From positions 1-28,679 of the IMG/VR virus record IMGVR_UViG_3300023096_000097: DNA of 28,679 nt. The stretch is one strand, 5' to 3'. This DNA is from a virus. The position numbers and the translations under genes are program-made. This document shows positions 5,638 through 26,880 of this stretch, one piece after another. The notes under the pieces were generated by a model, which saw nothing but the letters and a program-made list of their open reading frames with translations, did no database searches and had not been told where the DNA came from. How positions within the stretch are numbered: the stretch's first letter is position 1; the number at the start of each line of letters is the position of its first letter.

Positions 5638-5751
5638 GATTAAATCCTGCGGGGATAAGAGACGCATAGCATGGAAGATTGGCGTCAGAGTAGAAATCTG
5701 CCGGTATGCCATGTATCGTCAAGATCGTGCCAACCTGAGGGTTATCCTTTC

Positions 5752-6765
5752 ATGCAAAAAGTTGATCTGCCGCTGATGTCTTCCTCCCGCCATCCCGCTG
5801 CGCCCAACCGGCGACTGGTGCTGCTGGCTTATGAATGTCTGTGTACCTTCGAGTTTGGCATCGCCGTCGAAGCCTTTGGCCGTGCCGATGAACTCACGGG
5901 CGAACCGCTGTACGAGTTAGCCGTCGCGTCGGTAGAAGAAGGGACTTTCGGCGCGCAAGGCGGCGTGCGGCTGGTGGTGGATGGCGGGCTGGAACTGCTG
6001 AAAGACGCCGGTACGATTGTGATCCCCGGCTGGCGAAGCATTCACGAACCGGCGTCTGAGCGGCTGATTGCTGCGCTGCAAAAAGCCCATCACAACGGGA
6101 CAAGAATTGTGTCGATCTGCGCGGGAAGTTTCGTGTTGGCCGCTGCGGGTTTGCTGGACGGTAAACGCGCGACGGCGCACTGGAACAGCACCGATGTTCT
6201 GGCGCAAAAATTCCCTGACGTGCAGGTTGAGCACGGCATGATTTATGTCGATGAAGGCAGCATCATCACCTCTGCCGGTGGTGCGGCGGGCGTCGATTTG
6301 TGTCTGCATCTGATCCGCCGTGATTATGGTATCGAAGTCGCTAACCGTACAGCGCGCCGCATGGTGACGCCGCCGCTGCGCGAAGGGAATCAGGCTCAGT
6401 TGATCCAGCAACCGGTACCACGGCATCAGACAAAAACGCTGGCGCCCTTGCTCGATGACTTACGCGGCCATCTCAATACACCGCTGGTGATTGATCAGCT
6501 CGCCAGACAAGCCGGTATGAGCCGCCGCACCTTCCTGCGCCGCTTCCATGATGCTACCGGCACCACACCGGGAGAATGGATGCTGACCGTGCGGCTGGAA
6601 AAAGCCTGCGCCCTGCTGGAAAACGGCACACTGAGTATTGACCGCGTTGCCGAACAGGCCGGTTTCGGTTCGCCGGAAACTTTACGTCATCATTTCCGCC
6701 AGCGGCTGGGCATGTCGCCGACACAATGGCGCAAGGGGTTTGTTGAACGGGATTTGGTGGGATGA
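5752..6765 (+). CDS. ftrA: FtrA/GlxA-family transcriptional regulator (DJ-1-like + AraC HTH)
   Basis: Regulator of 337 residues from the ATG at 5752. GAGGG lies 12 bp upstream, so the site is weak; a start at 5671 would overlap the divergent promoter region. The N-terminal half is a DJ-1/PfpI-like domain, opening with RRLVLLAYECLCTFEFG and holding the nucleophile-elbow-like IVSICAGSFVLAAAGLLDG and the TAHW motif. The C-terminal 95 residues are an AraC/XylS DNA-binding domain with two helix-turn-helices (IDQLARQAGMSRRTFLRRF and DRVAEQAGFGSPETLRHHF). The layout and the CTFEFG opening fit the group annotated as FtrA in enterobacteria. It likely controls itself and the divergent efflux gene across 5638-5751. 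The ligand is unknown. Confidence 0.8.
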   Translation: MQKVDLPLMSSSRHPAAPNRRLVLLAYECLCTFEFGIAVEAFGRADELTGEPLYELAVASVEEGTFGAQGGVRLVVDGGLELLKDAGTIVIPGWRSIHEPASERLIAALQKAHHNGTRIVSICAGSFVLAAAGLLDGKRATAHWNSTDVLAQKFPDVQVEHGMIYVDEGSIITSAGGAAGVDLCLHLIRRDYGIEVANRTARRMVTPPLREGNQAQLIQQPVPRHQTKTLAPLLDDLRGHLNTPLVIDQLARQAGMSRRTFLRRFHDATGTTPGEWMLTVRLEKACALLENGTLSIDRVAEQAGFGSPETLRHHFRQRLGMSPTQWRKGFVERDLVG

Positions 6766-6812
6766 GTTTTGGGGGGCTGGCAGCAGTGGACTTCCGCCGC
6801 CCTGGTGACGCA

Positions 6813-6900
6813 TTTCTAAGCTGCCTGTGCGGCAGTGAACGATAACTGGACTACATCCCCCCGTGCTGATTGTTTCTAAGCTGCCTATCCGGCAGTGGGG
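6813..6900 (-). CRISPR. Orphan type I-F CRISPR mini-array: two repeats, one spacer
   Basis: Two 28-bp repeats (6813-6840 and 6873-6900) flank one 32-bp spacer (6841-6872), exactly the type I-F geometry. On the minus strand the left repeat begins GTTCACTGCC and ends GGCAGCTTAGAAA, the Yersinia/Pectobacterium/E. coli I-F repeat with a GCACA loop. The right repeat, upstream in this orientation, keeps the CTGCC/GGCAG Cas6f stem and the CTTAGAAA handle, but its first four bases are CCCC and its loop is GGATA. The parts that would make up a mature crRNA (handle from the right repeat, spacer, stem from the left repeat) are therefore intact. No cas or transposon tns gene lies within the window. It sits 47 bp behind ftrA. 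Confidence 0.85.
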
Positions 6901-6910
6901 TTAAAACCGC

Positions 6911-6938
6911 ATTATAATGCTTTAAATCAATTAGTTAA
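6911..6938 (-). promoter_or_regulatory. Sigma-70-like promoter facing the CRISPR mini-array
   Basis: On the minus strand TTAACT (6938-6933), a 16-bp spacer and a perfect TATAAT (6916-6911). The predicted start near 6904 is about 4 nt before the first repeat at 6900. The -10 lies in a 12-bp palindrome GCATTATAATGC (6909-6920), so TATAAT occurs on both strands, but no good -35 serves the rightward direction. Confidence 0.5.
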
Positions 6939-6978
6939 CACTCATTCTTCGCGTGAAATTAATGCCTTTGAGTGTTAA
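6935..6978. repeat. Ten-base inverted repeat beside the CRISPR mini-array
   Basis: Perfect arms TTAACACTCA (6935-6944) and TGAGTGTTAA (6969-6978) are separated by 24 bp. The left arm overlaps the -35 of the array-facing promoter, so it may be an operator; alternatively it may fold in a rightward RNA ending at the terminator at 7047-7080. I see no ORF in 6979-7046. Confidence 0.5.
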
Positions 6979-7046
6979 ATAAATCCCTTTTACTTCAGAT
7001 AGTTGAGAATGGTTTTGGGGAAAGGTTTTTGCCTGTCGGTTGAGGA

Positions 7047-7095: not shown

Positions 7096-8361
7096 TTAAA
7101 CTTTTACCCTCATCAAGTCGCTAAAACGAGTCGTGTATGCAGGAGAAAGCATCTGACGTTTCATCTCCCAGCTCTTTTGAATACCTTGCCCCGCAAACCA
7201 CACCCGCCCTTTTCCGCTATGATTGATGCCATCGAGAACAGCCATGAGTTGTTCACTGTTAGAACGTGGCTTGTACTCGTCGAAAAGGCCAAGCTGGGCA
7301 ACTCCCTGACTGTAGAAGTCACCCAACATCACACCGCATTTTTGGAACCGGTGACCATCTTGCCAGATTGCATCCAGGCACTGCGTGGCAGCGGCTACTA
7401 TATCGCGGCTGTCTTGAGTAGGTATCTGCAGTTTTGTACCTGCAGTTTTGCCGTAATAGACTTCATTCGTAGCGAACGGGCTGGTTTTGATGAATGCAGA
7501 GATGTGCCGACAGTACTGATGCTCACCGCGCAGCTTCTCTGCTGCCCGCACTGCATGGCTGCAGATAGCTTCACGCATCAGGTCATATTCGGCCACGCGG
7601 TCACCAAATGAACGAGAGCAGACGATCTGCTGCTTGGTTGGGGCAAACTCCTCAAGCTCTAGGCAAGGCTCCCCACGCAGTTCTCTCAAAGTTCTCTCTA
7701 AAACTATGTTGAAATGTTTGCGGATCAGTGGTGTAGGCGTATCTGCAAGCTGGAGTGCGGTTTTAATTCCCATATCGTTTAGCTTTTTAGAAATTCTGCG
7801 TCCGATTCCCCAAACCTCCCCAACCTCGACAAGAGCCATCAGTTTTCTTTGACGAGCCAGTAACGATAAATCAACGACACCACCGGTCTTCGTCCATTTT
7901 TTTGCAGCATAGTTAGCCAGTTTGGCGAGTGTCTTAGTCGGTGCAATTCCAACGCCTACGGTCAAACCTGTCCACTGAAGAACCTTGGCCCTCACCTCAC
8001 GCCCAAACTCTTCTAAATTCTGGCAATTACTAATCCCTTGCAGATTCATGAATGCTTCATCTATTGAGTAGACTTCCACAGCTGGAGACATTTCTTCCAG
8101 AATGGTCATCACCCGTGAGCTCATGTCCGCGTAAAGCGCGTAGTTACTGCTGAAGGTAACAATCTTATGCTTTTCGAAGATGTCACGCATCTTGAAGAAT
8201 GGCTCGCCCATTCGGATGCCTAATTTTTTTGCTTCTATACTGCGGGCTATTACGCAACCATCATTGTTACTTAGAACGACGACAGGTCGTCCCCGTAAGT
8301 CAGGGCGAAACACCGTTTCGCAACTGGCATAGAAGCTGTTCACATCAGCCAGAGCAAACAT
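7096..8361 (-). CDS. umuC: DNA polymerase V catalytic subunit UmuC
   Basis: Y-family translesion DNA polymerase of 421 residues (E. coli UmuC has 422). It copies past UV and chemical lesions together with two processed UmuD' subunits and RecA. Catalytic acidic residues are visible as D6 in FALADVN and D101/E102 in YSIDEA. The little finger and tail follow, with QLGLFD (356-361) matching the beta-clamp-binding motif QLNLFD of E. coli UmuC. Similarity to E. coli is high along the whole length, with no truncation. The start ATG at 8361 overlaps the umuD stop (TAATG), so the genes are translationally coupled and share the LexA-controlled promoter upstream of umuD. Confidence 0.97.
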
Positions 8362-8783
8362 TATTGAAACCCGTTAATACTGAAGGTGACGACGCCGAAG
8401 ACTTCCAACTCATCACCGCCGTCATGTAAGACAATTGGGGGGAAATCTGGATTCATAGGCACAAGCTGGAAGACTGGATGCGTACAAAGCCGTTTGACTG
8501 TGTATTCTCCTGCCAATGAAGCGATGATTATGTCCCCGTGCTTTGCCTGCAGGCTACGGTCAACCACAAGTAATGATCCCTCATAGATGCCCGCATCCAC
8601 CATGCTCATGCCCGTTGCCATTACAAAGTAAGTCGCTGCGGGGTGATTTACACAAAGCTCATTTAAATCAATACCTTTCTCAATATAATCCTGTGCTGGT
8701 GATGGGAAACCGGCCTGCACCTTGTCTTGGAAGAAAGGCAAAGAAAGCTTAATTGGGTCAGGGATTGGATAATAAATATTCAT
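8361..8783 (-). CDS. umuD: DNA polymerase V subunit UmuD (S24 self-cleaving)
   Basis: Protein of 140 residues. RecA-stimulated autocleavage yields UmuD', the accessory subunit of Pol V. The cleavage site is A24-G25 (QAGFP; E. coli has C24-G25). The catalytic Ser60 (ATGMSM) and Lys97 (EYTVKR) are at exactly the E. coli positions, so it should be functional. It ends in the usual [12 protein letters not shown] strand. The ATG at 8783 lies 18 bp from a near-consensus LexA box. A second, fragmentary UmuD-like C-terminus lies at 9112-9288 on the other side of the att-like site. Confidence 0.96.
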
Positions 8784-9481: not shown

Positions 9482-9841
9482 ATGTTAAAAATTTTCGTTA
9501 AGTATGCATTTATTGGTGGTCTTAATACCGCAATCCATTGGTTAACTTTTGCAGCCGTATACTACTCGTTTGGTCATGAGCAAATGATCAGTAACTTTGC
9601 GGGATTTTGCGTCGCTGTCACATTTAGTTTCTTTGCTAACGCCAAGTGGACTTATCAGGCAGAACACACAACTACAAAATACTTTCTGTATGTTGGCTTC
9701 ATGGGGGCGCTTGCTCTGGCCTGCGGTTACCTTGGTGATGAGGTCGAGCTTAACCCAATATTAACCCTGATAGGTTTTTCAGCAATAAGCCTCCTTATTG
9801 GGTTCCTATACTCGACATTCATCATATTTAGAGAAGAATAA
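9482..9841 (+). CDS. gtrA: GtrA bactoprenol-linked glucose flippase
   Basis: Small inner-membrane protein of 119 residues with four predicted helices. It moves undecaprenyl-phosphate-glucose to the periplasmic face for O-antigen modification. The family signatures are clear: [19 protein letters not shown] at the start, [20 protein letters not shown] in the middle, and [19 protein letters not shown] at the end, closely matching SfV/P22-type GtrA. ATG at 9482 lacks a good Shine-Dalgarno sequence. Its TAA overlaps the gtrB ATG (TAATG), so the two are coupled. It is the att-proximal gene of the serotype-conversion cluster, as in SfV. Confidence 0.96.
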
Positions 9842-10755
9842 TGAAAATATCTCTTGTCGTCCCTGTCTTCAACGAAGAGGACACCATCGCTATTTTTTAT
9901 CGGACAGTCCGCGAACAACTGTCTCAGCATGAGGTGGAGATTGTTTTCATTAATGACGGGAGTAGCGACAATACAGAAAGCCTAATTAACGCGCTGGCAA
10001 AATCAGATTCGCTCGTTAATGCGCTATCCTTCACCAGAAACTTTGGTAAAGAGCCCGCTCTATTCGCAGGTCTAGAAGCTTCAACAGGTGATGTGGTAAT
10101 TCCTATCGATGTCGACCTTCAGGATCCAATTGACGTGATCCCCCGACTTATCGAGAAGTGGCAGGAAGGTGCTGATGTTGTTCTGGCTAAACGAGCAGAC
10201 AGGTCGTCAGACAGCCATTTTAAGCGTAAAAGTGCTGAGTGGTTTTATAAGCTCCATAACATGATCAGCAAGCCTAAGATTGAGGAAAACGTTGGCGATT
10301 TCAGGTTAATGTCTCGCGCTGTCGTAGAAAACATTAAGTTGCTCCCTGAACGAAACTTATTCATGAAAGGGGTTCTGTCTTGGGTCGGTGGTCGCACTGA
10401 AGTTGTCGAATATACCCGAGATGAACGCGTTGCCGGTTCGACAAAATTCAATGGTTGGAAACTGTGGAACCTTGCTCTCGAAGGCATCACATCGTTCTCA
10501 ACTTTTCCACTGCGAATGTGGACGTATATAGGTCTTTTTGTGGCAGGTCTGTCTTTCGCCTACGGTGTATATATGATTATTGACACACTCGTTTTTGGCA
10601 ACCCCGTTCATGGTTACCCGTCTATTCTGGTTTCTATTCTTTTCCTAGGTGGAATTCAATTAATAGGCATTGGCGTACTTGGTGAATACATTGGGCGTAT
10701 ATATTTAGAAACAAAACAAAGACCAAGATATATTGTTAAAAGGAATAAGAATTGA
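9841..10755 (+). CDS. gtrB: GtrB bactoprenol glucosyltransferase
   Basis: GT2-family enzyme of 304 residues that transfers glucose from UDP-glucose to undecaprenyl phosphate on the cytoplasmic side. N-terminal GT-A fold with [20 protein letters not shown] and the metal/UDP-binding [10 protein letters not shown] (D90, D92, D95). Two C-terminal membrane helices follow, the last ending in [17 protein letters not shown], the usual family ending. Length and motifs match SfV GtrB along the whole protein. It makes the donor used by the type-specific transferase further along the operon. Confidence 0.97.
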
Positions 10756-11198
10756 AAGCGTTAAATCTTTTTTTCTGGCTGGGTGTTTTTATATCTATAA
10801 TCATGACTGTCTTGTTTTTTTTCTCATGGAATAATTACAAGGCGGTTGCACTTCCAGAGTTTGATGAAAAAATTGGCCTCTACTCAATAGATCAATGCAC
10901 GCTTACAGATAAATTTTTATCCATCCACGGATGGGCAGTTTCTGAACAAGATCCAAAAAGTAAAGTTAGGATTTATGCAAAAAAAATGAATGGTTCCGAG
11001 TGGGTTAAGGTAAATTATGCCACTCAAAGCAGACCCGATGTAAGCAAGTTTATCGGAACTTATAATGCTTTTGATAAATCAGGTTTTGAGGGGGCGATAA
11101 GAAATATTAAATTTCTTGGTGGTTTATCAGGAGATATAGCCATCACGATGGCCGATACAAGTGGAAAAGTCAGAGGGGTTATGTATGAATGCAAGTAA
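10752..11198 (+). CDS. Membrane-anchored protein of unknown function in the gtr operon
   Basis: Protein of 148 residues. The probable start is the TTG at 10752, overlapping the gtrB stop (TTGA), with AGGAA 6 bp upstream. One N-terminal membrane helix (about 5-25) is followed by a soluble domain on the periplasmic side by orientation, rich in predicted strands, with [21 protein letters not shown] and QSRPDVSKF and a final MYECK. I recognise no enzyme motif. Standard gtr clusters have three genes, and this one sits between gtrB and the transferase, overlapping both. It is much more AT-rich than the phage structural genes. It may assist or alter the glucosyl transfer or present O-antigen to it; this is inference from position. 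Confidence 0.75.
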
Positions 11199-12408
11199 AT
11201 GGAAGTTCTATTTTGCGACAGGTCTAATCGTAGTGTTCTACATAACCATGTTTCAAACCCTGAGATTGAGAACCAGTAATGATGATGTTTTCTTTTATAA
11301 CGCACTGAATACAAGAAACGTTTTAGAATTCATGCTTTATAGATATGATACTTGGAGTGGTAGATTTACAATCGAGGGTCTACTAGCATCAACGATACAT
11401 TTTAGCACTTTCTGGAAGGTTATAATACCTTCAGCATTCATACTTCTTGCCTGTTCGATAAGTCGTATTGCAACTGGCGAGATACGGCTTAATTTTGTGC
11501 TCGGTTCATCAGCTCTATTGCTTCTTGTACCTAAACTAATAAATATTGATTCTTTTTATTGGGTTACAGGTGCTTATAATTACATCATCCCATTCTCTCT
11601 TGCTACTTATTCCCTTTCCATTTTTTTAAAGCATGAACGAGGGTTAGTTAATTCTTCCTTATCATTAGTGGCGTTAGTTGTTGCTGGATTTTCAGAGCAA
11701 TCCGCAGTCTTTTTGCTACTAATTTGCTATAGCTTAATTGTGTTGAAAAAGGTTAAAATCTCATGGTATTCAATTGGTTTTATTATTCTATTGTCCATAT
11801 GTTCTGCATTCCTTTTCCTTGCTCCTGGAAATGAAATTCGGTCTTCTGCAGAATCCATTAATTGGATGCCGCAATTCTTCGAGTACAGTATATTATTAAA
11901 ATTAATGTTTGGGTTAGATAGGGTCGGAATGGCAATGAGCATGCCATTTAACATCCCACTTATCACTCTATGTATTGCTTTGATTTTGAAAACAAACAAA
12001 AAAGCATTAAGTAATTATATTTCATCAGCCATCATACTGTCTTATGTATTTCTTAACTTTTACATAAGCTTAAAAGGCTCGGCTTTTCATTCGTATTTCT
12101 TTAATTGGCTAAGTCCTGACCTACTATATCCGTGGGCGGAAAAATTCTCGTCTATAACTGGCCAAGCTTATCTTTTATACACCATGTTGTTTATAGTTTG
12201 TATCATGTTCAGATCATCGCTATTCATAGGCGGCCTTAACCGGAGCCTTATTCCTTTGGTGGCAACATCTTGCGCATTTGCCAGCATAGTCATGATTGGT
12301 TTTTCTCCAACAATCTATGCATCATATTTTAGAATTTTATATATGTTTAACATCTGCGTTATTATTGCCACATGTAACATTATTTATATGAAAATAGAAA
12401 ATGAGTGA
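11185..12408 (+). CDS. Type-specific O-antigen glucosyltransferase, GT-C polytopic (GtrII-like)
   Basis: Polytopic membrane protein of 407 residues with about 10-11 helices. I chose ATG 11185 (AGAGGGG 8 bp upstream) over the GTG at 11161; it overlaps the preceding gene by 14 bp. After the first helix the luminal-side loop carries SNDDVFFYNAL with an Asp-Asp pair, then YDTWSGRFTIEG, resembling the acidic catalytic loop and W-GR motif of GtrII/DUF6056-type GT-C enzymes. It would move glucose from bactoprenol to a specific O-antigen sugar, changing serotype and blocking superinfecting phages. These third genes differ between phages, so the linkage cannot be predicted. Strongly AT-rich, suggesting separate acquisition. 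Confidence 0.85.
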   Translation: MNASKWKFYFATGLIVVFYITMFQTLRLRTSNDDVFFYNALNTRNVLEFMLYRYDTWSGRFTIEGLLASTIHFSTFWKVIIPSAFILLACSISRIATGEIRLNFVLGSSALLLLVPKLINIDSFYWVTGAYNYIIPFSLATYSLSIFLKHERGLVNSSLSLVALVVAGFSEQSAVFLLLICYSLIVLKKVKISWYSIGFIILLSICSAFLFLAPGNEIRSSAESINWMPQFFEYSILLKLMFGLDRVGMAMSMPFNIPLITLCIALILKTNKKALSNYISSAIILSYVFLNFYISLKGSAFHSYFFNWLSPDLLYPWAEKFSSITGQAYLLYTMLFIVCIMFRSSLFIGGLNRSLIPLVATSCAFASIVMIGFSPTIYASYFRILYMFNICVIIATCNIIYMKIENE

Positions 12409-12440: not shown

Positions 12441-12639
12441 ACACGTAATCCTTTGTAAACTCTCCTGTTTTCGAATCATGCGAATCACCGATCCCACCAG
12501 TGGCAGGATCGTCCACCCTAACAGCAATACAACCATCCGGCGGAGCCCATTCCTTAATACCATCCCAGGCGACACGATTGATAACAATGTTTGTTGAGAT
12601 ATCAATCACTGCGTAAGTGTAAGTTTCATCATCCATCAT
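12439..12639 (-). CDS. Small tail-fibre-associated protein
   Basis: Protein of 66 residues. ATG at 12639 (with ATG 12636 next to it) overlaps the fibre gene stop and follows GGGAG; a TTG at 12651 is less likely. The pattern YAVIDISTNIVINRVAWDG ... WAPPDGCIAVRVDD ... GIGD ... GEF resembles small proteins encoded directly behind phage fibres in enterobacterial myophages, at the place of the tail fibre assembly gene (Mu U, lambda tfa). It is the last gene of the leftward operon. A chaperone or fibre-tip role is inference. Confidence 0.75.
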   Translation of the reverse strand: MMDDETYTYAVIDISTNIVINRVAWDGIKEWAPPDGCIAVRVDDPATGGIGDSHDSKTGEFTKDYV

Positions 12640-13505
12640 GCATACTCCCAAACAATAAACATACCCTTGGTTGCGTTACCGCCATAAACAGCCGCGCTGT
12701 TTGTTGCCACGCCAGCGCCGCCCCCGCCCGCCCCGTAACCCGCAGCATTACCACCTGCATTTCCACCCGCAGCAATTGCCACATTACCTCCGCCGGTGCC
12801 AAAGCGTGATGCCGCCCCCTGACCAGAAGCCGCGGCGCCGCTAAACACTTTACCGGATTGCCCGAAGACCCCTGGTGTTACAAGACCACTAATGTGTCCA
12901 CTTAAGGTAGGATTTCCACCTACGGCCCCGCCTCCATTTTCAAAATAAGCCACAGTGGAAGCCTGCGCTGATGCCCCACCGCCTCCGCCACCTGGTATGC
13001 TCATTAGTGACCCGAACGTTGATGTACCACCTGCTGCGCCGCTGGCGTAGTTTAGTGCGCCAATTGCGCCTATCGTGACAGCAACACTGCTAAACCCGGA
13101 TGTATACCATGCTTCAGCATAACCGCCGGAAGCACCACCACTGCAACATGTACAACCGTTTGAGCCAGATGCAATACTCCCAGCACCATTACCACCAGTA
13201 CCGATACCCTGAACAAAAATCTTTTTCGTTCCTGCGGTAGGCGTGTAGGTGGTGCTGGCAGTGATGTATTTCACGGCTAACAACCGACCGGGTCCCGTTA
13301 GCGATAACAATGATGCTAATAATTGCGCATCATTAGACGGGTCGAGTGTTAACCCTGCACCGGTCACTACGTTCGCAATCTCACGCTGAATAGTATTCAG
13401 CCACGCCGCATCCAAAATGGTCGGTGCAGTTCCCGCAGCTACATTGCCATTTGTCCACTCGCCGTTAGCATCCGCAGTAGGCGTTATGTTCCCAATTTTT
13501 TGCAT
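12636..13505 (-). CDS. Tail fibre with glycine-rich receptor-binding domain
   Basis: Protein of 289 residues. The N-terminus (MQKIGNITPTADANGEWTNG, then AAWLNTIQREIANVV) is the short virion-attachment module seen in P2/Mu-like fibres. From about residue 110 to the end the protein is dominated by Gly, Ala and Ser with runs such as SIPGGGGGGASAQ, AAGGNAGGNAAGYGAGGGG and the ending KGMFIVWEYA. This resembles polyglycine-sandwich adhesins such as T-even gp38/S16, whose loops between Gly strands choose the receptor. A CTCC cysteine pair (about 136-139) is unusual. It probably binds the host surface directly; the receptor is unknown. It stands at the Mu S position. Confidence 0.85.
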   Translation of the reverse strand: MQKIGNITPTADANGEWTNGNVAAGTAPTILDAAWLNTIQREIANVVTGAGLTLDPSNDAQLLASLLSLTGPGRLLAVKYITASTTYTPTAGTKKIFVQGIGTGGNGAGSIASGSNGCTCCSGGASGGYAEAWYTSGFSSVAVTIGAIGALNYASGAAGGTSTFGSLMSIPGGGGGGASAQASTVAYFENGGGAVGGNPTLSGHISGLVTPGVFGQSGKVFSGAAASGQGAASRFGTGGGNVAIAAGGNAGGNAAGYGAGGGGAGVATNSAAVYGGNATKGMFIVWEYA

Positions 13506-13559
13506 AGAGATTCCCTCACCAGTAAAGGCGCTGATAAAAAATTTTAAAAAGATTAATGA

Positions 13560-14156
13560 TTAATTCGAATAACCGAAAAGCACAACTGTATGAGATGGCG
13601 CAAGTGTATTGAGACGACACTCAAGCCGCTTATTTCCCCAAGAGCGCAAAGGGTCACCGGCATAAGACTGGCCAGCCTGAGCATAGGAAATAGTTGTTTC
13701 GGGCGCTGTTACCAGCCAGGTGAAGGGCCAGTTCTCTCCGTTAAGCGCATCACCGCAGACCGACATTCCCGCCCGCGCCTGACGGTAAAACGTCACGGTA
13801 ATGTCATAACCCAGCGCTTTGGCTACACCGATGAAATAAGCAGCGGACTGACCGCCCGTACTGAAAAGCTTCGAGACCACTGACTTTTGCCTGATGGCAA
13901 TGCTGTCATTTTCCCCTATGGCACAATCATCCGGGAGCCCGAGCGTTTTCTCCCAGTCGGTTAACATGATTGTCGCTGTTGCGGGAAAGGTGCCGGTCAG
14001 CAATGATACTGCCGCATCATCACTGTCCTGATATGACTGTGCCAGCGCCCGCAATACGGCGGTTTGAACACCATCAGTTTTGCGTGACCAAACCAGTCCG
14101 GTTGGCATTAAATTTTGCAGCGCTGACGTGTAATCTTCTAAAGTAAACCGGCTCAT
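13560..14156 (-). CDS. Mu gp48-like baseplate/tail protein (DUF2313, YmfQ)
   Basis: Protein of 198 residues. The opening DYTSALQNLMPTGLVWSRK and the later LALGYDITVTFYRQA-type region fit the DUF2313/YmfQ family that lies between baseplate J and the fibres in Mu-like phages. ATG overlaps the stop of the upstream gene (ATGA), showing coupling. It probably links the baseplate wedge to the fibre. The exact structural role in Mu is not well settled. Confidence 0.9.
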   Translation of the reverse strand: MSRFTLEDYTSALQNLMPTGLVWSRKTDGVQTAVLRALAQSYQDSDDAAVSLLTGTFPATATIMLTDWEKTLGLPDDCAIGENDSIAIRQKSVVSKLFSTGGQSAAYFIGVAKALGYDITVTFYRQARAGMSVCGDALNGENWPFTWLVTAPETTISYAQAGQSYAGDPLRSWGNKRLECRLNTLAPSHTVVLFGYSN

Positions 14157-15298
14157 GTATAAGTCACCGTACCCCTTACCGGCAATTGCCCGGTCGTGGT
14201 GGTAATATTTGCCGAGGGAGAAGTCAGGATAAACCCACCCGTACCGCTGACATTACTGATGGCAATCAGCAGATCAGACAGATAAATCGTGGCCCCCTGA
14301 GGGTTGCCGGACTCGAACAACACCCCATCAATGGCAGCGGCAATCGCGGCAGTTGTTGTACTGTTAGCCGATGCCAGGCCGCTAATCGTAAAATTGATGG
14401 TCGTTTTAATTGGCGAACAGACATACACCAGTGCCGTGACGGGCTGAAGCGGGTAGATATAATCCGCCACCCTTTTTTGATCCCCGGTCGCCTTGGTGCC
14501 CGACCAACTGTCGAGTGAGGAAATACCATCGGTACCCACGGGAAAACCATTATTTGAGGTATCAGTTCCGTCAATCATTATATACACGCCAACAGTACCG
14601 GCCCCCATAAGCCTGCGTACCGTCCACGCCCGCGTAACACCTGCTACGGCAAGCGCCCAGGCTTCATAGTCATCATCATTTCCGCCCTGTGGTGTATTTT
14701 GGTAGGCAAGCAGTGTCCGGGAACGGAAAGCATCTTCGGTTTCGATATCTGCGCCATCCGTAATGGCCGTGCTGATAGTCGCTATCGAGTCAACGCCTGA
14801 AATGTTTACATCCAGCGAGAGTTGTGTGCCTGCCGGAGTATTTCCCGCATCACCGCCACCCGTCGGGTCATCATTAGGATCAGGCAATACCGCTGTGATT
14901 GCGCCGGTAGCCGTGCCTGACGTTCCGATGTCAATCTCTGCATCTGTCGTGTACTGGTAGCCATCACCCCGGTTTAATACCGTCCCCGCCGGAATAGTTG
15001 CCCCATTAGTACCGGTGAAAATAGTGGCATTGTTAGTAGCGGCGTTGGCCGATTTTTGCGTCACGCTTTTTAAGGCAGCCCACCCCGCAAGATTTTCATC
15101 CGTCGCGCTCCATGGCACTGACTGCTTCGCAATCCAGTCTAAATAGCCGAAATGGAGATAAGCCAGCCCCGCATCTGCAGTGCCGAGAATATTTAAGTTT
15201 GAAAACCGTAATGGGGTACCCACCCCTTTTAATTCTGATTCAATCGCGGCGAGGTTACGCGCGCGCAGCTCGGTGAGCGTTGGCCGGTTGTATGGCAT
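14153..15298 (-). CDS. Baseplate wedge protein J (Mu gp47-like)
   Basis: Protein of 381 residues in the baseplate J/gp47 family (T4 gp6-like wedge). Characteristic parts are RPTLTELRARNLAAIESEL at the start, GTNGATIPAGTVLNRGDGYQY, GADIETEDAFRSRTL-type region and VAGVTRAWTVRR, followed by a C-terminal segment with PVTALVYVCSP. It forms the ring that holds the baseplate together and triggers sheath contraction. It starts 3 bp after the gp46-like gene and overlaps the gp48-like gene. Confidence 0.95.
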   Translation of the reverse strand: MPYNRPTLTELRARNLAAIESELKGVGTPLRFSNLNILGTADAGLAYLHFGYLDWIAKQSVPWSATDENLAGWAALKSVTQKSANAATNNATIFTGTNGATIPAGTVLNRGDGYQYTTDAEIDIGTSGTATGAITAVLPDPNDDPTGGGDAGNTPAGTQLSLDVNISGVDSIATISTAITDGADIETEDAFRSRTLLAYQNTPQGGNDDDYEAWALAVAGVTRAWTVRRLMGAGTVGVYIMIDGTDTSNNGFPVGTDGISSLDSWSGTKATGDQKRVADYIYPLQPVTALVYVCSPIKTTINFTISGLASANSTTTAAIAAAIDGVLFESGNPQGATIYLSDLLIAISNVSGTGGFILTSPSANITTTTGQLPVRGTVTYT

Positions 15299-15301
15299 CG
15301 A

Positions 15302-15736
15302 TTATGACTCCCAGACCCAGAAATAACGCTTCGATACAGCGTCCTGTCCCGGCTTTTGGTAGGTGATAAAAAGGTTGAGTCGGTTCGGATACACGATTTG
15401 TGTAACGGGCGTAATGCTGGCCACAACTCCGTCATCCGTAAGCCACTTCAGCGCCTCTGCGGCAAAGTCCTGTGCTTTGTTTGCAACAGCCAGCGTCAAT
15501 TTCTGACGGCGCAACAGCCAAAGACGTGACCCGATGGGATAATCCTGATCTTGATCTCCCCACCAACCGCGGCGATTATCGCCATCATATTCGTCATCTT
15601 CCCGCGCCAGCCGATCGGTAAAAAGACTGATTAGAATGGCAGTTTCAAGGTCAGAGCCTGACTGCAAGTCACCAGAGGATTCTACCCAGTCGCCAACAGA
15701 TTGTTCGGCATTCCAGACAGTTGTAATGTCAGTCAT
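15302..15736 (-). CDS. Mu gp46-like baseplate protein
   Basis: Protein of 144 residues of the Mu gp46 family (gp25-like neighbour in wedge assembly). The motif SDLETAILISLFTDRLAREDDE followed by GWWGDQDQDYPIGSRLWLLRRQK is typical. It connects wedge to sheath and tube in contractile tails. Its ATG overlaps the gp45-like stop by ATGA. Confidence 0.93.
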   Translation of the reverse strand: MTDITTVWNAEQSVGDWVESSGDLQSGSDLETAILISLFTDRLAREDDEYDGDNRRGWWGDQDQDYPIGSRLWLLRRQKLTLAVANKAQDFAAEALKWLTDDGVVASITPVTQIVYPNRLNLFITYQKPGQDAVSKRYFWVWES

Positions 15737-16317
15737 TCAACTAACTCCCCGGGTTTTTCGCTCGTAGGCGATGAACTGCCGCTCTGCACATTTTTAACAA
15801 CGTGATCGTGCATGTTGTAAGTGTCGCGCAGATCTTTCAGGGTGGTGGTATTGCTCCCGGCGTTGTCAATGATGTCCCCTGCACATTTCAGCACCGGTGT
15901 GTCAGCATAGATTTCTTCTGAAGCGACGATGGTCACCTTCGTTGAGTTAACCACCGTGACCGGTTTCCCTTTGGCGTCTATCTCTATGCCTTCCTCCATC
16001 AATTTAAAATGCATACCCCACAGGTTGTAGAGGATCGTTTCGCCCGGGTTTAGGCCGGTTTTTCGGCTACCTTTATGCCCGGAGGCAATCACTACCGCGT
16101 TCGACCGGTCGCCGGAAAGATAGGCAATTAGCACATCAGCGCCATCAGGCAATGAGGAGGAGAAGCCAAACTCCATCAGGCGGGGTGTATCGCCGCGCAC
16201 TTCCATCGGCGTGTTGTATTGCACCTTCTGGATCCCACCGTCGTCATTGGTCAGTGATACGCTGCCTACGCCAATCATCATCATCGCCCGGCGGTAAAGC
16301 GTATTGAGCAGGGTCAT
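15733..16317 (-). CDS. Baseplate spike/assembly protein V (Mu gp45-like)
   Basis: Protein of 194 residues, the usual size for Mu gp45. The N-terminal helical start is followed by an OB-fold region (VQYNTPMEVRGDTPRLMEFGF, LPDGADVLIAYLSGDRSNAVVIAS) and a C-terminal beta-helix-like section ending in HDHVVKNVQSGSS. The family trimerises into the membrane-piercing spike. The HDH stretch near the C-terminus is what would be expected at a metal-binding spike tip (compare HxH in P2 gpV); binding is inference. Confidence 0.93.
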   Translation of the reverse strand: MTLLNTLYRRAMMMIGVGSVSLTNDDGGIQKVQYNTPMEVRGDTPRLMEFGFSSSLPDGADVLIAYLSGDRSNAVVIASGHKGSRKTGLNPGETILYNLWGMHFKLMEEGIEIDAKGKPVTVVNSTKVTIVASEEIYADTPVLKCAGDIIDNAGSNTTTLKDLRDTYNMHDHVVKNVQSGSSSPTSEKPGELVE

Positions 16318-17375
16318 TGGTTCAACTCCTGGATCACGTTGTAGAAGCGGTAAGGCTGAACCGAAAACGCCGCCGGCGGCATCAGTACCATCTGCGCGAC
16401 CGTGCCCTGGTCATCTTTGATGAAAGTGACTTCAGCCAGCAGCCACAGCGCATCATTGATGCCCATTTTGGGGATATTCACAGGGATCAGGGTATTGGGT
16501 TCCCAGAGATTGCCTGCGCTGTCGCGCCAGTTATCAATGGTGACCTGCAGCACCTTCGAACGGCCGTATCGGCGGTTCATTTCCCAGTCGATCGCCTGCT
16601 GGGCCAGCTCTTTGGTGTTCATGGTACTTTCGACGATGATAATCCGGTTGCGGTACCGCATTTTGGCAACGTCCGGGTCATTTGCAGTGGCTTTAGTCAC
16701 GGCACCATAACCACTGTCATCAACCAGCGGGTTAACCGTCATTGAGACGCCGGTGTATTCTGAGAACCGCTCGTCCATCGAGGCTTCATAGGCTGCTGCC
16801 TCGATATTGACTCCCTGTGCGACGCCACTGGCGGCCTTCTTCGTACCCACTCGGGTCAGGTAGAGGCTGCCATCAGGCAGATCATAGTAGAGAAGCGCCG
16901 CCCAGCGGGTGATGCGGTCAATGATTTCCTGAGAGCTCTCCCCCCAGTTCAGCGTGAACTGTGGAACGTTATTTATACCGGTAACATCGCTCGATACAGT
17001 GATCCCGTATGGCGCGGCCAGACGCTGCGCAATCTGCAATGGAGTCGCGCCGGTGATCACGTTGTTGTCCCATTTAGCGGAGCAGTCTACGAGGTCTTCA
17101 CACTTGCTGCGTCCCGTTGCCCGGACCTCATGCCTCGAGGCGGAAATCATCGGCGCCCACCGGTCGATGTAACCAGTAATAACCGTATCACCCCCGAGTT
17201 TAACCACACAGGCATCCCCCTCTTTAACCAGTTGCTTTTCACCGCTTGCTGGATATTCATCCATTAATGACAGGTCAAAATCACTCGGAAAGCGCTCAAT
17301 GCTCCGGGTTACGCGCACAGAATCCCAGCCGGAAATCACCTTATCCCCCACGGTTAATGTCATTTCATCACTCAT
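16314..17375 (-). CDS. Baseplate hub protein (Mu gpP/gp44, P2 gpD-like)
   Basis: Protein of 353 residues, hub family of contractile tails (T4 gp27-like). It opens with MTLTVGDKVISGWDSVRVTR and carries DEYPASGEKQLVKEGD, TGYIDRWAPMISAS and VRATGRSKCEDLVDCSA, typical of Mu P. It forms the central ring on which the spike protein sits. It overlaps both neighbours by 4 bp, in the Mu order N-P-45. Confidence 0.93.
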   Translation of the reverse strand: MSDEMTLTVGDKVISGWDSVRVTRSIERFPSDFDLSLMDEYPASGEKQLVKEGDACVVKLGGDTVITGYIDRWAPMISASRHEVRATGRSKCEDLVDCSAKWDNNVITGATPLQIAQRLAAPYGITVSSDVTGINNVPQFTLNWGESSQEIIDRITRWAALLYYDLPDGSLYLTRVGTKKAASGVAQGVNIEAAAYEASMDERFSEYTGVSMTVNPLVDDSGYGAVTKATANDPDVAKMRYRNRIIIVESTMNTKELAQQAIDWEMNRRYGRSKVLQVTIDNWRDSAGNLWEPNTLIPVNIPKMGINDALWLLAEVTFIKDDQGTVAQMVLMPPAAFSVQPYRFYNVIQELNQ

Positions 17376-18778
17376 GAAGAAAGCGCCTTGAAGGAAAGTG
17401 GCATAAATGCCGGATGAATAGGATCGGCCATTTTTACCAACCCTTCGGTACGGCTCGCATCCTGATAGAGTCGGTTTGACAGGTTTAGTGCAGGCAGTGA
17501 CGCACTGAATATTACAGTTGATACATTGGCCAGTTGTGCCCCTTTATCCTGCAAGGTTGTTTTGACCGTGGTCTTAAGAACGGACAACTCGCTAAATACC
17601 TGGTCATAACCCGCATCTGCCGCAGCCAGTGATACCGTATCGATAACGGTGACCACGCGCTGAAGAAGTTCGGCGGCATCGTCATAGCTTACTGGATCGT
17701 AAAGAGACGCCGCATAGGCCATTGCGCCAACGCTTAGCGTGACGAGGTAAATTTGTGCAGCAGAAGCAATGCCGCTGTCGCTGCTGTCTGGCCGGTAAGT
17801 GGTGTCTGCGAACATCGCCAACGTTTCCAACAGGCGAACCAGATCCAACCCTTTCGCCTCACTGGAAAGTAACGCATTGACCACATCCTGCGCGCCGTTG
17901 GCATACGCGGATACACTGGTTGATGCCAGAAGACTGGATGTTAACGCCTTGACCTCTGCCCTATTTTCGACTGACGCGGCCATTTTCTGTGAAACGAGAA
18001 GGTCATAATCGTCAGTGTCTTCGGTAGTCTTCGTGCTATTGGTCGCACCCGAGGAATTTCCGCCTACCTTGCCTGTGTTATAACGGCTATATCGGCTGCT
18101 GCCGAACGTCGATTTCAGCGTATTACTGAGGTTTGTCGCCTCGTTGGCCGTGCGGGTCACCATCCCGGTCCAGAACGAAACCGTGCTTTTGAGTGTTTTT
18201 ATTGCCTGTGTAACCGTGCGTAAATCAGAATTCACCTCTGCAATAAACGTGGCCGCTGATTTAGCTGCCAGCGCCAGCCAGGATGTCTGAACGGTTGAAG
18301 CTGCTGAAGCAGCGCCGGTTATGGCAAAAACGCGCAGGCCAGACTCGATGACGGTCAGAGAAAATTCAAAAACACGCTCGGAGTCTTTGCTTTCCCTAAT
18401 CTTAAGGCCTCCGTCAGGTATGCTGACAGTTAGCTCTCCAAGCGTAGGATGCACCAGCGTTCCCGGTCCCAAGGCTTCACAGGCCGCAATAAGGCTATCC
18501 CGCTGGGTCATAACATCGGCGGCGCTGTAAATAAGGCTGGATTGAATGATGAATCCATTTAAGGTCAGGCGGCGCGTCCCCCGCCCCAGATCCTCTATCC
18601 ATGCAGTGTCACGATATGGGTATTCGTGGACAGCCTGCCTACGCCCGAAATTTCCTTCCGCATCGATAATTGCAAAGGGTACGCCGCGAAAAGATGCCGG
18701 GTGAATATGATCCTGCCAGTTCCAACTGTCGCCGGAGAAGCCTAACAGCGAAGACAGCGCATTTTGTAACAGTGGCAT
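17372..18778 (-). CDS. Mu gpN-like tail/DNA circularisation protein
   Basis: Protein of 468 residues. The N-terminal third has the DNA_circ_N signature: SFRGVPFAIIDAEGNFGRRQ, VHEYPYRDTAWIEDLGRGTRR and LTLNGFIIQ, with GTLVHPTLGELTV later. In Mu the N protein belongs to the baseplate/tail tip region and is linked to circularisation of injected DNA. The remaining part is helical and Ala/Ser rich. It follows the tape measure gene after a 48-bp gap that contains an intrinsic terminator, so its expression may be lower or depend on antitermination. Confidence 0.92.
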   Translation of the reverse strand: MPLLQNALSSLLGFSGDSWNWQDHIHPASFRGVPFAIIDAEGNFGRRQAVHEYPYRDTAWIEDLGRGTRRLTLNGFIIQSSLIYSAADVMTQRDSLIAACEALGPGTLVHPTLGELTVSIPDGGLKIRESKDSERVFEFSLTVIESGLRVFAITGAASAASTVQTSWLALAAKSAATFIAEVNSDLRTVTQAIKTLKSTVSFWTGMVTRTANEATNLSNTLKSTFGSSRYSRYNTGKVGGNSSGATNSTKTTEDTDDYDLLVSQKMAASVENRAEVKALTSSLLASTSVSAYANGAQDVVNALLSSEAKGLDLVRLLETLAMFADTTYRPDSSDSGIASAAQIYLVTLSVGAMAYAASLYDPVSYDDAAELLQRVVTVIDTVSLAAADAGYDQVFSELSVLKTTVKTTLQDKGAQLANVSTVIFSASLPALNLSNRLYQDASRTEGLVKMADPIHPAFMPLSFKALSS

Positions 18779-18795
18779 CCTGTCCTCCAGAAAGG

Positions 18796-18815
18796 AAAAA
18801 CCCGCCGAAGCGGGT
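18796..18815 (-). terminator. Intrinsic terminator inside the late operon
   Basis: On the minus strand ACCCGC-TTCG-GCGGGT with a stable UUCG tetraloop, followed by TTTTTCC. It lies between the tape measure stop (18827) and the gpN-like start (18778), not at an operon end. Baseplate and fibre genes lie downstream. Confidence 0.85.
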
Positions 18816-18826
18816 CAGGTTGATAT

Positions 18827-20662
18827 TTATGGCATCGACATTGCCGTGGTGACTTTGCCACCGCTTCCAGAGACTTTTTTGCGCTCTCCGGTTCGTTCAT
18901 TAATCAGCGTCAACTCGATTTCGCTTTTATTTTCTTTCAATGACTTAGATAAAGTGTCAGCAAGTTGTTTCATGTCAATTCCACCACCAGATATTCCATT
19001 TGAACCTGCTGCCGGCGCGTTTATATTTGGCTCTCCCCCTTTGCCTGTCTGGTTAATTTCAGTGTTCCCTGAATATCCTTGCGGTACTCTCCAGCGGGGA
19101 TCGGTCATCGATGTATTGATACCATTATCAATATCACTTTCGCTGTAGGGCTGGCTTCCATTTTCATGGCGGATCATCGCGGTCATCAGGCGCTTTAGGG
19201 TGGCTGGGTCACTCAAATCCAGTTTTTCATGCGCGCCAAATCCCGTATCTTTGGTCACTGCATTGATATAGGCCTGTGAGTCATTTTCACTGGACGGGGC
19301 GTAAGTGTGGATAATGCCATAAGGCGTGTCATTCCCCCTTCCACCATACAACTGAAGCTGCCTGCTCATCGCTGCCAGGCCATCGTTCGGGTTACTGAAA
19401 ATAGGGAAACTGCCATCATTGCCTACCGCGTTAGGCGCGGACCGTAAATTACCCGGGTTATTGTTACGGATCCCGCGGGCATTATTATTACCGGGCTGAT
19501 TGAACGATAATGGCGGCACTACGGAAGATGGCGGCTGCGCATACATCGCTTGCACATCTTTTTGAAGCTGGCTCGCCTTATCCGTCGGGCCATAATAACT
19601 GTTAAGCTTTTTGACTAAATCACCGGAGGCATAGCCCAGATTAAGGTCAAGCTTTTCATCCCACGAAAGTGTGGATTTAAACTTTTCATCCTTCAGGGCT
19701 TCCCTAATGCGATCTGCCTGTTCTCCCCCGCGGTTAAAGGTCATTAATGATCCGACCGTCGCAGTATCAAACCCATGCTGCATAACTTGGGAAGCATCAT
19801 CAAAACTTTTCTGAACTATCGGGGCCTGTCCCAGCCACGCCTGCCCCTTCATCAGCATGCCATCCCACGACGCCGAGATCTGGTTTACCTGATTACGGAA
19901 TGCCAGCGCGTTCTGCACATCTTTATCTGAGAAAATCAAACCGTCACGCTGCGCCTGATCTTTAAGGCGCTGGACCTGCTCGGTGCTTTGCCGCAGGTAG
20001 TTCAGAAGATCTGGCGAGAACTGCCCTACCTGCGCAATCACAGACTGGCGAGCTGGTGTTTGTTTCAGCATGGCTCGATTCAGGTCATCCATCAGTTTTA
20101 CAACGTCAGCCATACCCTCTTTGGTTTTGCTGATCTTAATGCCCATCTGCGCCATAAGGGCATTGAAGGGATCATCCCGACCGTTAAGTGCATCATTGGC
20201 ACGCTGATAAAGACCGGTAACAGAGCTTTCAGCAGAATCCCGCGTTGCCCCATTTTCAATCATCGCACCGGTCAGTTCTTGATAGGCCCGGGTGGTTGCG
20301 CTGATATTTTTGGCGGTGGTATCAATTTTATAGCCGGAATCCGCATATTCCTTGATTTGTGATTTTACACCATTCAAGACAGTGGCGAGACCGCCCAACC
20401 CCAAGGTCAGGCCGCCCACCATTTTTAGCGGTGGTACAAGGTCCCCGACAAACTGGACACCATCCCGCGCATTTTTTGCCAGCTTCTCAAGACGCCCACT
20501 GACCTCATCAAGACCTTCAGCGGAACGGCGGCCGCCAAGCTGAATGACTTTTTGCGCATCATTGAGATGGGGTGTCAGTTTTTTCACCGCATCATCAATG
20601 TTCTGAATTGACTGTGAAACCTGATCATCTGCTTTCAACTGGAAATCAAATACATTACCCAT
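18827..20662 (-). CDS. Tape measure protein with internal peptidoglycan-hydrolase-like domain
   Basis: Protein of 611 residues that sets tail length and is injected with DNA. The N-terminus is helical (ADDQVSQSIQNIDDAVKKL), with a hydrophobic segment about 78-98 (LVPPLKMVGGLTLGLGGLATVL). Residues about 396-516 form a distinct module: RGIRNNNPGNLR, then FPIFSNPNDGLAAMSRQLQLYG, IIHTYAPSSENDSQAYINAV and MIRHENGSQPYSESD. This pattern is shared with virion-associated muralytic domains (P5-like). It would open the cell wall during entry; activity is inference. The ATG overlaps the TAA of the chaperone frameshift extension (TAATG) and has AAAGGA upstream. At 611 residues it predicts a fairly short tail. 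Confidence 0.93.
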   Translation of the reverse strand: MGNVFDFQLKADDQVSQSIQNIDDAVKKLTPHLNDAQKVIQLGGRRSAEGLDEVSGRLEKLAKNARDGVQFVGDLVPPLKMVGGLTLGLGGLATVLNGVKSQIKEYADSGYKIDTTAKNISATTRAYQELTGAMIENGATRDSAESSVTGLYQRANDALNGRDDPFNALMAQMGIKISKTKEGMADVVKLMDDLNRAMLKQTPARQSVIAQVGQFSPDLLNYLRQSTEQVQRLKDQAQRDGLIFSDKDVQNALAFRNQVNQISASWDGMLMKGQAWLGQAPIVQKSFDDASQVMQHGFDTATVGSLMTFNRGGEQADRIREALKDEKFKSTLSWDEKLDLNLGYASGDLVKKLNSYYGPTDKASQLQKDVQAMYAQPPSSVVPPLSFNQPGNNNARGIRNNNPGNLRSAPNAVGNDGSFPIFSNPNDGLAAMSRQLQLYGGRGNDTPYGIIHTYAPSSENDSQAYINAVTKDTGFGAHEKLDLSDPATLKRLMTAMIRHENGSQPYSESDIDNGINTSMTDPRWRVPQGYSGNTEINQTGKGGEPNINAPAAGSNGISGGGIDMKQLADTLSKSLKENKSEIELTLINERTGERKKVSGSGGKVTTAMSMP

Positions 20663-20814
20663 TATCTTTCCTTTAACTTATTGATGCGCAATGCCTGATC
20701 CCGCCACCAGTTGAGTTTCGACCATGTTAGCCGCCCGGCCTGATCCGGGCCCCAGCCGTAGTAATACGTCACATCGGCGATGCGTTCACGCCATCTCCCG
20801 CCGTCGGGGAGAAG
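20662..20814 (-). CDS. Frameshift extension of the tail assembly chaperone (gpT-like part)
   Basis: Entering the -1 frame right after the slippery AAC codon gives 50 further codons, open until the TAA that overlaps the tape measure ATG. The translation (LLPDGGRWRERIADVTYYYGW ending WWRDQALRINKLKER in its later part) has the basic, Trp/Tyr-rich look of chaperone extensions that bind the tape measure protein. It would give a fusion of 183 + 50 = 233 residues. It explains an otherwise gene-free 106 bp before the tape measure gene. The same arrangement is known for Mu gp41, P2 E/E' and lambda G/GT. Confidence 0.8.
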   Translation of the reverse strand, partial: LLPDGGRWRERIADVTYYYGWGPDQAGRLTWSKLNWWRDQALRINKLKER

Positions 20815-21362
20815 TTTAAAAAACCCAGCATGTAACCCTCGCAGCGCTTGTAATCCGTAAACGGCAGACGGTTAATGACCTGCGGAGGAATGCCGGAGAT
20901 TTCGGCGATCAGCGCGGACATCGCCGCCAGACCGCCTTTCACTGTCTGGGTTTTATAAAACTGGTCAACCTGGTCAAGACAGGGTTCACCAAGATCGATA
21001 CCTGCCCAGTTATGCTCCCCTTTGCCGTCCTGAAGGGCTTTTGGCAGCACGATCACCGTGCTGCTTTCAACCGGCATAACGGGTTCGGGGATGTAATTTA
21101 AGAAGGTGAGAAGAAATACCTCACACTGTTTGAAAGTGGTAAACGGTATGCGCCTGACAACCTGCGGCGGGATCCCCGATAACAGCGAGATAAGGAGCCC
21201 CATCGCCGCCAGCGCGCCGTCCGTTTTCTGCTTATCAAAGAACTGATTCACTTCGATCAATGCAGGCTCATGCAGTTCAATGTTTTCCCAGACCAGTTTA
21301 CCGCTGGCGTCAGCCAGCGGTTTATCCAGAGGAATGACAATACTTTTTTCCTGCTCTTCCAC
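20769..21362 (-). CDS. Tail assembly chaperone with tandem duplicated domain (Mu gp41-like)
   Basis: Protein of 197 residues made of two copies of one unit: residues about 8-90 and 103-184. Both copies share EP-L-VNQF/VDQF, a Gly-Ala-Leu-Ala-Ala-Met helix, SGIPPQV, R-PFT and a closing FLNY/FLNF. Single-copy relatives (Mu gp41 type) are about half as long. The product coats the tape measure protein during tube polymerisation. The second copy ends at the slippery site that gives the 233-residue fusion; the matching codons in copy one (TTC TTA AAT) are not slippery. Position between tube and tape measure genes is canonical. Confidence 0.9.
   Translation of the reverse strand: MEEQEKSIVIPLDKPLADASGKLVWENIELHEPALIEVNQFFDKQKTDGALAAMGLLISLLSGIPPQVVRRIPFTTFKQCEVFLLTFLNYIPEPVMPVESSTVIVLPKALQDGKGEHNWAGIDLGEPCLDQVDQFYKTQTVKGGLAAMSALIAEISGIPPQVINRLPFTDYKRCEGYMLGFLNFSPTAGDGVNASPM
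20794..20820 (-). promoter_or_regulatory. Programmed -1 ribosomal frameshift site
   Basis: The heptamer T TTA AAC (20820-20814) is in the correct register of the chaperone frame (GGT TTT TTA AAC). A hairpin TCTCCC-cgacggc-GGGAGA (20812-20794) starts 1 nt later; that spacing is short for a classical stimulator, so partial opening or another structure may act. The -1 frame is open for 50 codons beyond. Confidence 0.85.
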
Positions 21363-21364
21363 GA

Positions 21365-21733
21365 TCAGCTCTCCACGACTGAGAAGCTTTCCCAGCGGAC
21401 ATCGAACACAGCGTCTTCACTGTCCACTTCCTGTGATTCGACCGTCCACATCCCGGTACCAATAATCGTTTTACCGTTGGCGAGTTCAGCCACCACGGTG
21501 ACATCGGTCATGCCGTTAAAGTCTGCCACCGTGGTACCGCCGCTGTCGCGAACCTGACAGGAGATATACGGCGCAGAAGGCTTTTCCTTATAGCCATGGA
21601 CACGATCCATCCCGGTCAGTGTTTCGCGTTTAACGGTTGAAGGACTGTATTTGAACTGCCCGGCGACCATGATTGTGACGCCATTGGTCGTCACCGACGC
21701 GGTGCCCGCCAGGCGGTTGGAAGTATCACCCAT
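21365..21733 (-). CDS. Tail tube protein (Mu gpM-like)
   Basis: Protein of 122 residues, the size of Mu M. TSNRLAGTASVTTNGVTIMV, FKYSPSTVKRETLTGMDRVHGYKEKP and ISCQVRDSGGTTVADFNGMTDVTVV are typical of Mu-type tube subunits. It stacks as hexameric rings around the tape measure protein inside the sheath. It lies directly after the sheath gene. Confidence 0.94.
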   Translation of the reverse strand: MGDTSNRLAGTASVTTNGVTIMVAGQFKYSPSTVKRETLTGMDRVHGYKEKPSAPYISCQVRDSGGTTVADFNGMTDVTVVAELANGKTIIGTGMWTVESQEVDSEDAVFDVRWESFSVVES

Positions 21734-21742
21734 TTTTTTTCC

Positions 21743-23227: not shown

Positions 23228-23463
23228 TAGCTCGCACTCCCGGTATCAGTTGATGCGGCAGCTTTTTCAGCGCCTGCATCGGTATTTTTTACAGCGGTTG
23301 TCGACTTCGCGGCGGCTGCTGAAGCATCAACGGTGATAACGTCACCATCACGCAGCCGGCGATCCCAAAACGTACTTTTAGCGACCTCTGCCCCTTCTTC
23401 GGGCAAAAAGGTGCCTTTAACCGGATCACGCACTGTGCGCCCGGCTACGGGTTTAACAAACAT
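23227..23463 (-). CDS. Small Mu gp38-like protein (DUF2635)
   Basis: Protein of 78 residues. The first half, FVKPVAGRTVRDPVKGTFLPEEGAEV and FWDRRLRDGDVI in sequence, is the DUF2635 motif found directly before the sheath gene in Mu-like tails. The second half is low-complexity Ala/Thr/Ser. The function is unknown; a tail-assembly role is assumed from synteny. Confidence 0.88.
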   Translation of the reverse strand: MFVKPVAGRTVRDPVKGTFLPEEGAEVAKSTFWDRRLRDGDVITVDASAAAAKSTTAVKNTDAGAEKAAASTDTGSAS

Positions 23464-23479
23464 GGGATACTCCAGATAG

Positions 23480-24668: not shown

Positions 24669-24670
24669 GA

Positions 24671-25723: not shown

Positions 25724-25740
25724 AGCGTATTCTCTCTGTG

Positions 25741-25760: not shown

Positions 25761-25823
25761 TAAAAAATGGATGCATTACGCCCTACCCGGTTAAGGGCAT
25801 GCGAAGAAGTCGATTAAAGGGTT

Positions 25824-26878: not shown

Positions 26879-26880
26879 CT

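Follow-up and report, generated by a model that had tools for sequence, protein, structure and literature searches.

A one-spacer type I-F CRISPR array at the edge of a Rahnella prophage is very probably a phage attachment site

A solitary type I-F CRISPR mini-array of two repeats and one spacer lies at the border of phage DNA in IMG/VR virus record IMGVR_UViG_3300023096_000097, which raises the question of what such a unit represents. The initial annotation had read it as a single fixed guide under selection. The window, meaning the whole 28,679-base virus record, is divided between host and phage. Its left 6.9 kb is Rahnella chromosome, with 99.1% identity to genome G012 over 6 kb and 92% identity of the same segment to R. 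perminowiae, and the remainder is prophage DNA that includes genes for a contractile tail, umuDC, and a gtr module. The features of the window are as follows.

5671–6765, plus strand: ftrA, the host gene that marks the chromosomal site, with the array just downstream (ORF)
6766–6812, minus strand: host 3′ flank of the array (TGCGTCACCAGGGCGGCGGAAGTCCACTGC...), the same flank that follows the last repeat of G012
6813–6840, minus strand: complete host I-F repeat, the last of the array (GTTCACTGCCGCACAGGCAGCTTAGAAA), with 0 mismatches to the I-F pattern
6841–6872, minus strand: spacer CAATCAGCACGGGGGGATGTAGTCCAGTTATC, exactly 32 nt, on the leader-less side
6873–6900, minus strand: the whole hybrid repeat (CCCCACTGCCGGATAGGCAGCTTAGAAA)
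6873–6880, minus strand: host-derived segment of the hybrid repeat with the sequence CTTAGAAA, which is the 8-nt crRNA 5′ handle, identical in host arrays (attL table)
6881–6895, minus strand: putative attL core CTGCCGGATAGGCAG, a palindrome common to phage and repeat and also the Cas6f hairpin (attL/attR comparison)
6896–7020, minus strand: putative phage attachment arm, a leader look-alike that ends with the CCCCAAAAC motif at −125
6925–6937, plus strand: perfect IHF consensus AATCAATTAGTTA inside the arm (consensus scan only)
7012–7020, minus strand: CCCCAAAAC, candidate integrase site of the arm type, with a constant spacing (−125) to the core
7096–8361, minus strand: umuC, phage translesion polymerase gene (ORF; Pfam IMS / Peptidase_S24 for umuC and umuD)
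8361–8783, minus strand: umuD, phage translesion polymerase gene (ORF; Pfam as for umuC)
9482–12408, plus strand: gtr-like glycosyl transfer module of the serotype-conversion type, variable prophage cargo (ORFs)
12636–28676, minus strand: structural genes for tail, baseplate, sheath, capsid, S49 protease, and portal (Pfam)

Read on the minus strand, as the complement of 6813–6900, the unit consists of two 28-bp I-F repeats and a 32-bp spacer, just as the initial annotation had placed them, and its anatomy was also correctly described in that both Cas6f stems and the 8-nt handle are kept. The repeat at 6813–6840 is identical to repeats in the arrays of G012 and Rahnella sp. AA, and because it is complete and shared with real Rahnella arrays, the unit is not a chance occurrence. 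The repeat at 6873–6900 has 3 mismatches to the I-F pattern, all within its first four bases, and differs from the complete repeat at two positions of the loop. The 28-nt repeats and 32-nt spacing are those of a functional I-F array; the phage arm stands directly 5′ of the first repeat, the position of the leader in such an array, and promoter-like matches upstream of the stub are present in numbers at chance level.

The chromosomal side of the window is a known location for these systems. The cheW–ftrA region of Rahnella is the home of I-F arrays and of the cas1-cas3-csy1-2-3-cas6f operon, and ftrA also adjoins I-F arrays or cas6f in other Rahnella. Cas6f is encoded in 5/14 Rahnella species genomes, in at least three of them at the same ftrA-adjacent site as in the window. 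Uninterrupted arrays are found in the relatives G012 and G001; that of G012, a species-mate of the window, has five repeats and the same 3′ flank, and Cas6f was not found in this genome. It is true, as had been remarked, that no cas genes lie within the window. Because the window is a virus fragment of 28.7 kb and Cas6f is patchy among Rahnella genomes, their absence is uninformative. Two separate observations were made in this chromosomal setting. Between cas3 and csy1 of G006 (L073 11130–11190), two I-F-like hairpins, AAACTGCCGCTTCAGGCAGCTTAGAAA and CTGCCGCACAGGCAG, are separated by 18 nt and face away from the operon; they are absent in G013 and may be a regulatory guide or a relic. In the window itself, positions 1–358 and 1274–2983, upstream of the ftrA region, hold neighbouring chemoreceptor-type genes that are ~78% alike in parts.

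The origin of the divergent repeat was examined by comparing eight attL, two relic, and eight attR junctions. The hybrid repeat of the window is composed of CTTAGAAA from the host, a shared 15-bp core that forms the palindrome CTGCC-N5-GGCAG, and CCCCA from the phage. The adjacent arm aligns with other arms and occurs beside phage DNA in the window, L002, L079 (G403), L080 (G402), L081, G004, G014, G411, and G412; G006 and G013 contain relics of it. At these nine phage-flanked junctions and two relics, the arm always joins inside the repeat, just before CTGCC, and across junctions GTTCA is replaced by CCCCA, CCGTG, CAGTG, CATTG, CTGTG, or TTGAG. In addition, CCCCAAAAC is located at exactly −125 in 8/8 of the non-relic attL arms scored (window, L002, L081, G402, G403, G004, G014, and G411), and the IHF consensus is held by the arms of the window, L002, and L081. 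The initial annotation had thus located the divergence correctly, in the first four bases and the loop, but the differences appear to be the phage half of an attachment site rather than drift tolerated by a crRNA. From these sequence comparisons, we consider it highly probable that the window feature is the attL of a temperate phage that uses a type I-F CRISPR repeat as attB. There is likewise strong support for reading the mini-array as a stub of a Rahnella type I-F array, on the side distal to the leader, from which the prophage has cut it.

Other origins of the arm were considered and dropped. The ordinary arrays examined (G001, G002, G006, G009, G012, G013, and G015) have another leader type, diverged in G009, and the arm is absent from all ordinary Rahnella arrays but found beside phage DNA at other junctions. 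The existence of two leader types of I-F arrays was dropped since ordinary arrays share one type and the other faces phage or relic sequence, and a chimeric deletion between two arrays was dropped on the same leader and arm evidence. No tRNA that could serve as attB was found in the window, and a tRNA attB for its prophage was dropped on this ground. Elsewhere, at L099 279–368 (record G403), a sequence resembling the 3′ end of a tRNA (GGGGGTTCAAATCCCCCAGCGCCACCA) is found immediately inside the attL arm; ARAGORN annotates it as tRNA-Stop with anticodon TTA, and it is probably a fragment.

The window record stops short of the integrase side of its prophage, so that only the putative attL is visible; the opposite junction was seen in related prophages. 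There, the I-F leader comes first, followed by between zero and two repeat-spacer units, then GTTCACTGCCGnACAGGCAG, phage DNA, and the integrase. In G004, GTTCACTGCCGTACAGGCAG stands between the I-F leader and the phage DNA, 42.8 kb from the window-type junction. The same opposite junction is found at 45 kb in G014, where the leader has diverged, at 40 kb in G402, after two complete repeat-spacer units, and at 32 kb in G403. Reciprocal attL and attR with the 15-bp core were recovered in these four, and attL alone in the window. Beside the second junction, all four encode a 381-aa integrase (94–97% mutual identity) with Arm-DNA-bind_1 and Phage_integrase domains and an adjoining excisionase-like gene. 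This enzyme is 47% identical to the integrase of phage 21 and is a phage-21-like tyrosine integrase. An integrase beside one end is found in the same four and in seven flanked viral records.

The association of this integrase with the repeat is consistent. An integrase at least 94% identical is present in 13 IMG/VR contigs, and GTTCACTGCCGnACAGGCAG marks the end in 7/7 of those with host DNA past the integrase; both Rahnella genomes that carry it, G004 and G014, end in an I-F repeat (2/2). At E ≤ 1e-140 it is absent from 86/88 relatives, G004 and G014 being the only carriers, and no half repeat was found beside integrase relatives at 44–50% identity. The repeat used is the first, second, or third (L109, L110, G402, and others), and two array sites are used, one near ftrA and one near an nlp-like gene. 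L109 is cut at the third and L110 at the second repeat of near-identical arrays, and others are cut at the first, which argues that the repeat itself, rather than a flanking gene, is the site. A pattern search of viral contigs for free attP matched only integrated attR copies, and a search of viral contigs for other phages split at an I-F repeat returned terminal or solitary repeats, with no other adjacent integrase by a simple motif screen. As a separate matter, the leader junction of G014 lies beside the nlp-like gene (L075 5711–5799) and its other junction beside ftrA (L084 19865), and this genome lacks Cas6f; the cas operon may have been lost there through recombination between the arrays or prophages on either side of it.

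These junctions bear on a simpler explanation, in which an ordinary orphan array lost its spacers by recombination between repeats and the prophage is merely adjacent. Arrays at the ftrA site are short, several species keep only a repeat remnant, and the species-mate G012 is itself without Cas6f, all of which would suit decay. However, decay does not predict an arm that joins within the repeat just before CTGCC at all eleven junctions and that ordinary arrays never carry, nor a matching half repeat with a leader at the far end of the prophage, and we regard this explanation as very unlikely. The low spacer count may nevertheless be due to decay. The distal stubs at all attL junctions (window, L002, L081, G402, G403, G004, G014, and G411, with relics in G006 and G013) are short, with 0–3 spacers, and intact arrays in cas-positive genomes contain up to 44. 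The distal spacer of G402 recurs in the intact array of G001, where it occupies the last position (44th of 44).

Attachment within the repeat can be described by the following model. A phage-21-like tyrosine integrase would recombine the core of attP, in which phage arms are predicted on both sides of CTGCCGnACAGGCAG, with the copy of the palindrome CTGCC-N5-GGCAG that lies within the CRISPR repeat, and one repeat would become two half-host, half-phage repeats 32–45 kb apart. The leader side would keep the leader, the newer spacers, and GTTCACTGCCGnACAGGCAG, and the other side would retain the older spacers and the 3′ flank together with the hairpin and CTTAGAAA. The window would correspond to the second side, with one spacer and the last repeat and without a leader; a half repeat (GTTCACTGCC...), an I-F leader, and an integrase are predicted at the far end of its phage. 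Over 15 kb, window positions 13358–28679 show 76% identity to the prophage of G014, where the integrase and both junctions are present, and gtrA/gtrB relatives adjoin the G014 junction; in the window, umuC and umuD (7096–8783) sit at the attL end of the prophage. Based on the matching arm and the G014-like structural genes, the window phage was grouped with the integrase-bearing prophages, and it presumably carries the 381-aa integrase; the same evidence suggests that the mini-array is the last host spacer and repeat on the leader-less side. The stub would no longer be transcribed from the array leader, and excision would restore the array. Cas6f cleaves at the 3′ base of the hairpin stem (PMC10651486). 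The crRNA plan looked intact because the split leaves a 20-nt repeat half, GTTCACTGCCGnACAGGCAG, on one side and the hairpin with the 8-nt handle CTTAGAAA on the other, and the apparent pattern of selection is a by-product of the position of the core within the repeat.

The spacer itself is not conserved. At ≤3 mismatches, it is absent from the 14 Rahnella genomes and 392 family genomes searched, and its one other occurrence is in the viral contig L002, at the same junction. Other species have different spacers at this junction, and two contigs from the same site, L081 and L079, lack the spacer. The phage end and host flank of L081 are those of the window; its phage may have entered the last repeat, or the unit may have been lost by deletion between repeats. 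Searches for protospacers gave only chance-level matches in phages and plasmids and no convincing target in the 14 Rahnella or 392 family genomes; a seed-plus-PAM pattern led to one viral contig, which was rejected for its mismatches beyond the seed. Selection for a fixed guide, either a regulatory (Cas-regulating) crRNA or a crRNA for a cas locus elsewhere, would be compatible with the intact Cas6f hairpins and handle and with the 80 array bases that are identical in L002 next to an arm of 94.7% overall identity. That identity is, however, expected if two phages entered the same repeat, and L002 does contain a different prophage at this repeat, which accounts for the combination of identical array and diverged arm. 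Given also that spacers differ between species with no common seed, that no seed match lies near the cas loci examined, and that same-site contigs lack the spacer, a fixed guide is highly improbable. A CreR-type guide was specifically rejected, as the window is without cas genes, the cas loci examined contain no seed match, and seeds differ by species. A remnant was among the three roles initially offered; the one preferred there, selection of a single guide, is not supported.

The wider set of 171 Rahnella spacers was compared with these phages. One G013 spacer matches a gene near the integrase in G402, L105, and L109/L169, another G013 spacer matches G403, and a G001 spacer matches L002, in each case with a CC PAM and 0 mismatches. 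These perfect matches indicate that the phages that integrate into CRISPR repeats are natural I-F targets. In the two genomes whose prophage is intact, no Cas6f was found. One tentative possibility, which we think somewhat doubtful, is that integration into the repeat is a counter-defence: a phage family targeted by type I-F systems would have evolved an integrase for the I-F repeat, and lysogeny would disconnect the older spacers (the whole array, if the first repeat is used), leave crRNA processing of the rest intact, and be reversed on excision.

The position of the unit at a phage end could also mean that it is phage cargo, that is, a phage-borne mini-array or a solitary-repeat RNA anti-CRISPR, and phages are known to carry Cas6f-binding I-F solitary repeats (PMC10651486) and mini-arrays (PMC11656645). 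Yet the spacer side, the last repeat, and the flank come from the host, and a prophage-free strain has this repeat and flank too; the phage contributes only the core and the bases before it, and the upstream promoter-like site is at chance level. Of the explanations weighed, cargo is accordingly the least probable, with hardly any likelihood left to it.

Attachment of the prophage in a CRISPR repeat, which is strongly supported by the junction sequences, would link phage integration to CRISPR memory, and its functional consequences can be outlined conditionally. A CRISPR repeat would offer the phage a landing site that is conserved, multi-copy, and non-essential. In the host, the array would be broken at a fixed point, with consequences for the set of spacers expressed and for the place at which further spacers enter, and excision could undo the break. 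The natural target of the 381-aa integrase would be a CRISPR repeat, and where genomes are rich in prophages, some of the mini-arrays classed as orphans may be attachment sites. The open-access literature searched contained no earlier description of attB within a CRISPR repeat, which does not in itself prove novelty.

Finally, the locus can be compared with known systems. The prophages with both junctions resemble phage 21 and other lambdoid phages in their integrase (47% identity to phage 21 Int), with arm-binding and catalytic domains and an excisionase-like gene, and in their attachment arms and reciprocal half-sites; unlike in those phages, attB here would be a multi-copy CRISPR repeat rather than a single chromosomal gene or tRNA. 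With the Rahnella type I-F array (cas1-cas3-csy1-2-3-cas6f) the stub shares the host repeat, spacer length, and flank, but it lacks a leader, and half of its first repeat comes from the phage. As in the RNA anti-CRISPR RacrIF1, a solitary I-F repeat in a phage, phage sequence contains the I-F hairpin palindrome. In contrast to the solitary complete phage repeat with its own strong promoter that defines the RacrIF1 type, the hairpin here would be a DNA recombination core, with no complete solitary repeat and no evident promoter, and the 3′ handle and the DNA that follows are of host origin. Solitary I-F repeats (GTTCACTGCCGnnnAGGCAG) were also observed in nine viral contigs (L132, L133, L134, L137, L138, L144, L145, L154, and L156), several with a terminator-like hairpin after the repeat, and these are candidate RacrIF1-type RNA anti-CRISPRs. 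Like the mini-CRISPR arrays of archaeal viruses (PMC6858448), the window has a one-spacer array beside virus genes, but its spacer and last repeat belong to a host array.
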